From NCBI RefSeq assembly GCF_024218775.1, contig NZ_CP100404.1:3286001-3350000 (forward strand): DNA of 64,000 nucleotides, read 5' to 3'. A program made the translations under genes and the position numbers. The notes beneath the pieces were generated by a model that was not told where the DNA came from, did no database searches, and worked only from the letters and a program-made list of their open reading frames with translations. Shown here piece after piece: positions 44,327-48,102 of the stretch. Source of the stretch: Haloarcula marina. GTDB taxonomy: Archaea; Halobacteriota; Halobacteria; Halobacteriales; Haloarculaceae. The first letter of the stretch is position 1. Each line of letters opens with the position of its first letter.

Positions 44327-46759
44327 TCACCGCACGTCGACGGTTCGAGAGGCGGTCACAGGAGGCAGCGGCCGGTTCGGAAACGTCACTTCGACGGTGT
44401 ACTCCAGTTCGTCCGCGTCGGCCCCGAAGACGGCGACCGGCAGGGTCGACTGTCCGAGATAGGAGGGTTTCGCCGTCATTTCGCGACCGTTTACCGTCAC
44501 CCTAAGCCCGGCGCGCGCGCCGCCGCCGTTGTTCGCGACGGTCACTTCGCGCATCTCGTGGTCGCCGGTTGCCACCGACTCCGGGAACTTCCCCCAGTCG
44601 ACGACGACGACGGGCAGGTCCCGCGCGTTCGAAACGACCTGTTCGGCGACGCCCTCGGAGAGGCCCGCCGCGACGACGCCGGAGACGCCCGCCGCGACCA
44701 CGTCCGCGGGAGAGCGGAGGCCGTCGGCGGCGAGTTTCTTCGCCCGACCGGACCCGACGCCGTCGATGGCGGTCAGGCCGACCGCGTCCTCGCTGATACC
44801 GTGTTCGACGCGCGCCTCGACGCGACAGGCGAGGTTGGCGAAGCGGGCGGGCGCGAGGTTGTCGAGGAACTCCCGCAGGGCCGCCAGCAGGCGGAGCGCG
44901 TTCTGCCGGATGACCCACGCGTCGCTCTTCAGTTCCGTCGGTGTCGTCCCGGTCATCCCAGACCGGAGGATGGCGAGGACCTTCCGCTGGCCTGCGTCGA
45001 GGTCCGACTCCTGACTCGCTCGCGGCTGGTCGCCGCTCGCGTTGTCCGAGGCGCGTAGCGCCTCGCTACCCAGTACCGCGTTGACGGCATCCTGTTCGTC
45101 CGACCGCGCGCTGACGCTGTCGAACTCCGTCGCGCCCGCGACGGTGGTCAGCAGGTCCTCAGCGTCGACGGTCGCGCCGTCCTCGCTACAGCGCTCTGCG
45201 AGGTCCGCGAAGCGCCGGGCCGTCTCCAGACGGAGATAGAACTTCGAGGCGAGTTGGCCGAGTCGCGTCGACTCGATGCGGAGGCCGTCCTGTTCGACGA
45301 AGCCGTCGGCGACCAGTTCCCCGAGCGTGCGACTGACCCGTTCGCGCAGGTCGCTCCCGGCGTCGTACTCGGCGGGCGCAGACTGGGCGCGCGCGTAGTA
45401 GAACGTCGTCTCCAACCAGTCCATCACGTCGTCGACGTCCCGAATCGTCCCGAGGGCGATTTCGGCGTTCAGGTGGGCGTCCAGTTCCGCGGCCAGTCGG
45501 GACTCTATCTCCTTGCCGTCCCGCAGGAGGCGGCGGTACTTATCCGCGTCCGAGCGGTCACAGACGACCCACGCGTACCCCAAGTCGTCGTAGCCGGGAC
45601 GGCCCGCCCGCCCGAGCATCTGGAGGATGTCGAGCGGACTCATGTCGACTTCGCCCTCCAATGGGTCGTGGAGCTTGGTGTCCCGGATGACGACACAGCG
45701 AGCGGGGAGGTTCACGCCCCACGCCAGCGTCGACGTGGAGAACAGCAACTGAATCTTCCCTTCCTTGAACCACTGCTCGACGCGGTTCTTGTCCTCGCGG
45801 GCCAGGCCCGCGTGGTGGAAGCCGACACCGTCCAGCACCGACTGCCGGAGCGTGTCGTTCGAGAGGTCCGCGGCGTCGTTGTGGAAGTCGTAGTCCCCGC
45901 GCGCGCCCATCGGGATGTCGCGCTGGGTGAGTTCGTCGCGGGCCTTCTTCGCCGCCTGCACCGTGTCCTGTCGCGACGAGACGAACACGAGCGACTGGCC
46001 CTCCTCGCGGATGTGCGGTTCGGCCAAGTCGAGCGCGCGGTAGAGCCGCCGGTACTTGTCGGCGAAGGCGTTCTCGCCGTGCGAGTACGTCTTCACGTCG
46101 GCGTTCAGCGGCACGGGTCGGTAGTCGTCGCCGAAGGCGAACGTGGTCTCGCTGGGCGCGTCCAACCAGTCCGCCACGTCGTCGATGTTCGGCATCGTCG
46201 CCGACAGCGCGACCACGCGGGGGTCACAGAGCCGTCGGAGTCGGGAGACGGTGACCTCAAGCACCGCACCCCGGCGGTCCGAGTCCAAAAGGTGGACCTC
46301 GTCGATGACACAGCAGTCCACGTCGGTGATAAAGGAGTACCGCGGCGTGTCGTGTTTCCGGGTCGCCGAGTCGGCCTTCTCGGGGGTCATCACGAGGATG
46401 TCCGCGCGCTCGGCGCGGCGGGGACTCAGGTCGCGTTCGCCCGTGACGACGTACACCGAGTACCCCATCTCCTCGAAGCGCTCCCACTCGCTCTCTTTCT
46501 CGTTAGTGAGCGCGCGGAGCGGCGCGAGAAACAGGGCGGTCCCGCCCTCGGCGAGCGTCTTGCAGATAGCCAGTTCCGCAAGGGCGGTCTTCCCGCTGGC
46601 AGTCGGCGCGCTGACGACCACGTTGTCCTCGCGGTTCAGTAAGGCCGGAAGCGCCGCCGACTGCATCTCGTTGAACCGCTCGAACGGGAAGGCTCCGGTG
46701 AACTTCGGCAGCACGTCTTCGACCGCCACCGTCGGCTCACTGTCTGCTCGGCGTGGCAC
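44327..46759 (-). CDS. Ski2/Hel308-like SF2 helicase with C-terminal FN3-like domain
   Basis: A protein of about 810 residues. SF2 motifs are in order: SAPTASGKTALAELA (Walker A), VIDEVHLL (DEVH box), ALSATMPN, VFVSSRQ and QMLGRAGRPGYDD. A winged-helix and ratchet region and a helix-hairpin-helix (LTAIDGVGSGRAKKLA) follow. The last 100 residues are beta-rich and resemble the FN3-like end of a Sec63 unit, as in Brr2/Ski2 proteins rather than canonical Hel308. GTG at 46759 is my preferred start, where acidic coding composition begins; the frame remains open to 46885. It probably remodels nucleic acids in repair, recombination or RNA processing. Confidence 0.9.
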   Translation of the reverse strand: MPRRADSEPTVAVEDVLPKFTGAFPFERFNEMQSAALPALLNREDNVVVSAPTASGKTALAELAICKTLAEGGTALFLAPLRALTNEKESEWERFEEMGYSVYVVTGERDLSPRRAERADILVMTPEKADSATRKHDTPRYSFITDVDCCVIDEVHLLDSDRRGAVLEVTVSRLRRLCDPRVVALSATMPNIDDVADWLDAPSETTFAFGDDYRPVPLNADVKTYSHGENAFADKYRRLYRALDLAEPHIREEGQSLVFVSSRQDTVQAAKKARDELTQRDIPMGARGDYDFHNDAADLSNDTLRQSVLDGVGFHHAGLAREDKNRVEQWFKEGKIQLLFSTSTLAWGVNLPARCVVIRDTKLHDPLEGEVDMSPLDILQMLGRAGRPGYDDLGYAWVVCDRSDADKYRRLLRDGKEIESRLAAELDAHLNAEIALGTIRDVDDVMDWLETTFYYARAQSAPAEYDAGSDLRERVSRTLGELVADGFVEQDGLRIESTRLGQLASKFYLRLETARRFADLAERCSEDGATVDAEDLLTTVAGATEFDSVSARSDEQDAVNAVLGSEALRASDNASGDQPRASQESDLDAGQRKVLAILRSGMTGTTPTELKSDAWVIRQNALRLLAALREFLDNLAPARFANLACRVEARVEHGISEDAVGLTAIDGVGSGRAKKLAADGLRSPADVVAAGVSGVVAAGLSEGVAEQVVSNARDLPVVVVDWGKFPESVATGDHEMREVTVANNGGGARAGLRVTVNGREMTAKPSYLGQSTLPVAVFGADADELEYTVEVTFPNRPLPPVTASRTVDVR

Positions 46760-46952
46760 GTCAACAGGGCGGAACCGCGACGGCAAAGGCGTTTCTATGG
46801 ACCGGCGACTGACGGGCCTGCGACTCCCCGAACGCGGAAATTTCTCGCGACCGAGCCGTAACAGACACAGGCCGGGAATTCGCACGTTTCAGCCGCTTTA
46901 TCCCCTGCAAACGTTATAACGCCCTCCCGCTCACAGGCATCGGGTAGAGGCG

Positions 46953-47135
46953 ATGTCCGTACTCGAAACCGTCGAGCAGACGGGCGGAATAGAGGCGGAG
47001 AAACCGAGCTACGAGTGTGCGGACTGAGGCTACGAGTTCCAGACCGACGCCGACCCCGGGTCGTACTGGTTCAACCGTTCGGAGTGCAGTTCCGAAGACC
47101 TCACACCGCTTGACGACACCGCCGACGCGAACTGA
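46953..47135 (+). pseudogene. small zinc-ribbon gene interrupted by in-frame TGA
   Basis: A 60-codon frame from ATG 46953 to TGA 47133–47135 with haloarchaeal composition, but codon 25 (47025–47027) is TGA. The frame reads SYECAD–(TGA)–GYEF … SYWFNRSECSSED. In two-knuckle zinc ribbons the stop position is the second Cys of the first CxxC. In the second knuckle the expected first Cys is Arg (CGT), one base from TGT. Two of four metal ligands are therefore lost, which points to decay rather than recoding. A TATA-like GTTATAAC lies about 40 nt upstream, and lipA starts 41 nt downstream. Selenocysteine is the alternative reading and is judged unlikely. Confidence 0.7.
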
Positions 47136-47175
47136 GACACAATCTCTTTTGCGGGCAGGTCCTAACCGTCGGACA

Positions 47176-48102
47176 ATGAGTCGTGCGCGCAAGCCCGACT
47201 GGCTGAAGATGCGGCCGCCGTCGGGCGAGCGGTTCACCGACATCAAGCAGACCCTCCGCGACCGGAACCTCAACACCGTCTGCGAGGAGGCCAACTGCCC
47301 GAACCTCGGAGAGTGTTGGAGCGGGCGCGATGGGCCGGGGACGGCCACGTTCATGCTGATGGGCGAGCGGTGTTCGCGGGGCTGTAACTTCTGTGACGTG
47401 CAGACGGGCGGGATGGACCCCTTGGACCCGGAGGAACCCGAACAGGTCGCCGACGCCGTCGCCGATATCGGTCTGGACTACGTGGTGCTCACCTCCGTCG
47501 ACCGCGACGACCTACCGGACCAGGGCGCGGGCCACTTCGCGGAGACGATTCGGGAGATAAAACGACGCGATTCGGACGTGCTCGTCGAGTGTCTGATTCC
47601 GGACTTCCGCGGCGAGGAGCGCCTCGTTCGAAAGATCATCGACGCCGAACCGGACGTGCTGGCCCACAACATCGAGACGGTCGACCGCCTCCAGTGGCCG
47701 GTCCGCGACCGGCGGGCGGGCTACGAGCAGTCGCTGTCGGTCCTGCGGCAGGCGAGTCGGGCGGCGGACATCTACGCGAAGACGAGCATCATGCTCGGCG
47801 TGGGCGAGTACGCACACGAGGTGTATCAGACGCTCTCGGACCTGCGGCAGGTCGGCGTCGACGTGGTGACGCTGGGCCAGTACCTCCAGCCCTCGCGGTC
47901 CCATCTGGAAGTGGCCGACTACGTCCACCCCGACGCCTTCGAGACGTGGCGGCGGGTCGCCGAGGAGGAACTTGGGTTTCTGTACTGCGCCTCGGGCCCG
48001 ATGGTCCGGTCGTCGTATCGCGCGGGCGAACTGTTCGTCGAGGCGGTTCGACGGGGCGACGACGTGGCCGACGCGCGGCGAGCGGCGCGCGTGGACCGGT
48101 AG
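47176..48102 (+). CDS. lipA: lipoyl synthase
   Basis: A 308-residue radical SAM enzyme. The auxiliary cluster Cys are 36, 41 and 47 (CEEANCPNLGEC), and the SAM cluster is Cys66-x3-Cys70-x2-Cys73 (CSRGCNFC). It inserts two sulfur atoms into octanoyl groups bound to lipoyl domains. It lies 87 nt upstream of the 2-oxoacid dehydrogenase genes, whose E2 carries a lipoyl domain with Lys42, so it serves the next operon directly. ATG at 47176 is clear. The conserved Arg-Ser-Ser-Tyr near the end (VRSSYRAGE) is present. Confidence 0.97.
   Translation: MSRARKPDWLKMRPPSGERFTDIKQTLRDRNLNTVCEEANCPNLGECWSGRDGPGTATFMLMGERCSRGCNFCDVQTGGMDPLDPEEPEQVADAVADIGLDYVVLTSVDRDDLPDQGAGHFAETIREIKRRDSDVLVECLIPDFRGEERLVRKIIDAEPDVLAHNIETVDRLQWPVRDRRAGYEQSLSVLRQASRAADIYAKTSIMLGVGEYAHEVYQTLSDLRQVGVDVVTLGQYLQPSRSHLEVADYVHPDAFETWRRVAEEELGFLYCASGPMVRSSYRAGELFVEAVRRGDDVADARRAARVDR

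Follow-up and report, generated by a model that had tools for sequence, protein, structure and literature searches.

The small frame that precedes the lipoyl synthase gene, lipA, in Haloarcula marina raises the question of whether an in-frame TGA is read as an amino acid there or marks a gene in decay. The frame lies on the plus strand at positions 46953 to 47135 of the window, by which we mean the whole stretch of 64,000 nucleotides analyzed. It has 60 codons with one in-frame TGA, codon 25, and reads MSVLETVEQTGGIEAEKPSYECAD, TGA, GYEFQTDADPGSYWFNRSECSSEDLTPLDDTADAN and a closing stop. The features of the locus are as follows.

44327 to 46885, minus strand: helicase-like ORF, putative from sequence motifs, divergent upstream neighbor; its true start is probably within this range
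46914 to 46920, plus strand: TTATAAC, a TATA-box-like element, at a similar place in most intact relatives
46953 to 47135, plus strand: zinc-ribbon gene remnant (very probable pseudogene); 46953 to 47114 is the family part, and 47115 to 47135 is extra frame opened by loss of the usual stop
47025 to 47027, plus strand: TGA where relatives encode C25, the second Cys of the first CxxC (TGT in the sister lineage G018)
47076 to 47081, plus strand: Arg-Ser codons (CGT TCG) where the relatives have an invariant Cys-Pro in their second knuckle, CPxC
47176 to 48102, plus strand: lipA (lipoyl synthase), intact and strongly constrained, the conserved downstream neighbor

Relatives of the interrupted frame

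Among 32 genomes belonging to the genus, 9 carry an uninterrupted relative of 54 to 57 codons that is 49 to 67% identical to the query. In seven cases lipA follows directly downstream in the same orientation, and a CxxC...CPxC arrangement with four Cys residues is common to all nine. A first contig scan, with a query in which the Cys was filled in, had found only two relatives. A protein profile built from eight intact relatives matches the window copy at E = 3.5e-22, and because no other match in the genome is better than the next-best value of 0.03, there is no second copy in this genome. A DNA profile from which the window sequence was left out, run against the regions upstream of lipA in the genus, recovers the window copy with 112 bits (E = 2.3e-34). 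Judged by these matches, the window frame is not a chance ORF but a real member of a family of predicted zinc-ribbon proteins of 54 to 57 amino acids. A 146-codon minus-strand ORF that covers the TGA site was put down to high G+C content and rejected.

Neither Pfam nor NCBIfam has a named family whose cut-off is reached by the intact relatives, and the family is therefore described here as unnamed and C(P)XCG-like. The intact relatives resemble the haloarchaeal C(P)XCG micro-proteins (HVO_2753 and HVO_0758 of Haloferax volcanii and Brz of Halobacterium salinarum) in having fewer than 70 amino acids and two CxxC-type knuckles (PMC11241148, PMC2253796), and their zinc site is a predicted one. 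In H. volcanii, 49 proteins of the C(P)XCG type have been predicted, several of which do not bind zinc (PMC11241148). The window copy shares with seven of the uninterrupted relatives both homology and the place upstream of lipA, but it differs from the micro-proteins in that it is interrupted and lacks two of the four Cys residues, and it does not combine their small size with two CxxC motifs.

Several variants were seen among the other genomes. G006 (L012) and G014 (L013) carry an intact zinc-ribbon gene and have no lipA match at E 1e-60; lipA may have been lost or replaced there. In G009 (L042), the same place before lipA is occupied by a different short CxxCG...CPNC protein (MSDQNTADAEANYECDDCGNAFHANRNDSPPFTCPNCKSDNASPLNG), which is perhaps a divergent form of the zinc-ribbon gene. 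Halomicroarcula rubra (G018; L017 and L044) has two lipA-like genes, the second of which is 83% identical to the query and lies in another context. In a homologue from another genus of the family (G161; L057), the first knuckle starts with Tyr instead of Cys (YDYVECG), and no stop is present.

Lesions in the window copy

A sequence-only reading of this locus had placed TGA codon 25 at the second Cys of the first CxxC in a gene upstream of lipA and had noted Arg (CGT) for the first Cys of the second knuckle. Both descriptions were borne out, the latter as C42R against Cys in all nine relatives. The first knuckle of the window copy is SYECAD-TGA-G, and the second is FNRSEC. In the sister lineage, H. 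rubra, the interrupted codon is TGT, one base apart from TGA. No stop was found inside the zinc-ribbon gene in any other genome among the 32 of the genus or the 242 sampled of the class; stops flagged as interruptions in G005, G011, and G017 proved to be normal terminal stops.

The damage extends beyond the two knuckles. Along with C42R, the window copy carries P43S, V11G, and S31T at columns that are invariant in the nine relatives. Altogether it is changed at 5 of the 19 columns that are invariant in the others, compared with 0 to 2 for intact relatives in a similar leave-one-out count. The usual stop of the relatives, after codon 54 to 57, is absent through a small deletion or substitutions, and the window frame is therefore overlong, running to codon 60. 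The earlier description of the frame as intact therefore does not hold for its length. Homology continues on both sides of the TGA. Past the TGA, the window frame offers no in-frame ATG, GTG, or TTG at which translation could restart.

Sequences that resemble promoters are found on both sides of the frame. When upstream sequences are compared, most intact relatives have an element like TTATAAC about 25 to 45 bases ahead of the ATG; it is the putative promoter of the zinc-ribbon gene. Just before lipA itself, a promoter-like sequence similar to CCCAANCNCTTTTG is conserved in the window and in most relatives. A bacterial promoter scan of the region was set aside, as its bacterial model is uninformative for archaea.

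Gene loss and selection among neighboring lineages

The lipA tree groups the window genome (G000) with H. rubra (G018), then with Haloarcula pellucida (G015; L003), and then with the pair G010 and G002. The zinc-ribbon gene is intact in G018 and G010, truncated to its 3' half in H. pellucida, and erased in G002, where 23 bases of it survive together with the 3' flank (pairwise blastn E = 1e-05 and 2e-34, respectively). Because the tree interleaves the affected genomes G000, G015, and G002 with the intact G018 and G010, the gene has been lost at least three separate times. In most other genomes of the genus, the DNA before lipA is unrelated, and many have lipA without the zinc-ribbon gene.

A codon model fitted on the lipA topology gave an omega of 0.28 on the window branch versus 0.079 in the background, based on 54 codons. 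An omega of 1 was not rejected on the window branch (P = 0.19), whereas it was rejected on the branches of G018, G010, and G011 (P = 0.0003, 0.004, and 0.02, respectively). The omega of lipA on the window branch was 0.035. With only 54 codons, the two-ratio model gave no significant gain over the one-ratio model (P = 0.10), a result to be anticipated when a short gene has been lost recently. This and the conservation of much of the frame count against decay, which must therefore be recent.

Alternative readings of the TGA

If the TGA were read as selenocysteine, or as another residue by a suppressor tRNA, a full-length product would result in which Sec could serve as a metal ligand. Cys codons are the usual place of Sec/Cys exchange, the TGA sits at such a codon, and the homology on both sides of it would fit a continuous product; an in-frame TGA at a Cys position is also what the window copy has in common with archaeal selenoproteins of the Methanococcales type. 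It differs from those in occurring in a single genome, in the loss of a second ligand, C42, and in the lack of Sec machinery. No tRNA-Sec was found above the cut-off in the genome (RF01852, best 40.3 bits versus a cut-off of 47); five weak RF01852 matches were ordinary Thr, Arg, and Lys tRNAs and were rejected as cross-matches. SelD and SelB had no match above their curated cut-offs, and sub-cut-off matches were rejected as the cross-matches that other GTPases and AIR-synthase-type proteins would be expected to give. The archaeal Sec synthase model (SepSecS, TIGR03531) matched the Methanocaldococcus jannaschii positive control and nothing in this genome. Transfer RNAs were located with RF00005, which misses some intron-bearing tRNAs, and read in pieces by ARAGORN; none of the 42 of 43 matches that were read has a UCA anticodon, although an intron-bearing UCA tRNA may possibly have been missed by the search. 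The 43rd, a 102-base tRNA-like match over the Rfam cut-off that ARAGORN did not call (L116; G000:C1:1927121-1927222), is probably an intron-bearing tRNA, and reading by eye found no TCA in the region that separates its D and T arms. The intron-bearing Trp tRNA, located by pattern where ARAGORN made no call, has the anticodon CCA. No SECIS element was matched by Rfam, whose coverage of archaeal SECIS may be poor, at E values up to 10 in 46750 to 47450. Sec use in archaea has been published only for Methanococcales, Methanopyrales, and Asgard lineages (PMC9312934, PMC11227280). Recoding is thus extremely improbable, and the relatives upstream of lipA, with Cys codons at both places, speak against it as well. 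The preference of the sequence-only reading for pseudogenization or error over recoding is supported by these Cys codons, by the lone stop, and by the missing Sec machinery, and its proposed search for tRNA-Sec, SelB, and a UCA-anticodon tRNA was negative at the thresholds and among the tRNAs given above.

The two halves of that preference did not fare alike, since decay is upheld while sequencing error is unlikely as the full explanation given the other changes. A sequencing or assembly error in an otherwise living gene would need a single wrong base between the TGA and the Cys codon of G018. A missing Cys alone is also no proof of death, given the G161 relative that lacks one and the several Haloferax C(P)XCG proteins that bind no zinc (PMC11241148). 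Correcting the TGA alone, however, would leave C42R, P43S, V11G, S31T, and the lost usual stop, and by its sequence the frame would still be without a complete metal site; so many wrong calls in 180 bases beside a normal lipA are unlikely, and we regard error as improbable. A new role for the 24-codon short frame or its transcript, such as a lipA leader, would fit the retention of the first codons and of the promoter-like element. The conserved promoter-like sequence of lipA itself and the many genomes of the genus with lipA alone make such a role highly doubtful.

Probable decay of a dispensable gene

The window copy is very probably a pseudogene of recent origin, derived from a small C(P)XCG-type zinc-ribbon gene of haloarchaea. 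Losing a Cys is by itself tolerated in such proteins, and so the case for decay is built on the stop in combination with the other lesions; the TATA-box-like element, which is still present, counts against it. As relatives either keep the gene intact or have lost it independently, we interpret the locus as ordinary gene decay and not as a new reading of the code. The ancestor would have been a gene of about 54 codons upstream of lipA, encoding a single-domain CxxC...CPxC zinc-ribbon protein. After the split from H. rubra, a Cys codon would have become TGA on the species branch, ending the frame at codon 25, and on the same branch Cys-Pro would have been lost from the second knuckle, along with the usual stop. 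Translation most likely stops at the TGA and would yield a peptide of at most 24 residues without a metal site; near-cognate read-through at some level, giving a 60-residue protein whose metal site is altered, is very unlikely. We infer the order of these lesions, and likewise that no functional product is made.

To our knowledge, no recoding is known in Halobacteria, and this case, if true, would be the first; the evidence is against it. The phenomenon is instead a familiar one, ordinary gene decay, with little significance beyond annotation, and the frame at 46953 to 47135 should be annotated as a pseudogene. For the genus, the repeated losses indicate that the lipA-linked zinc-ribbon gene is dispensable.
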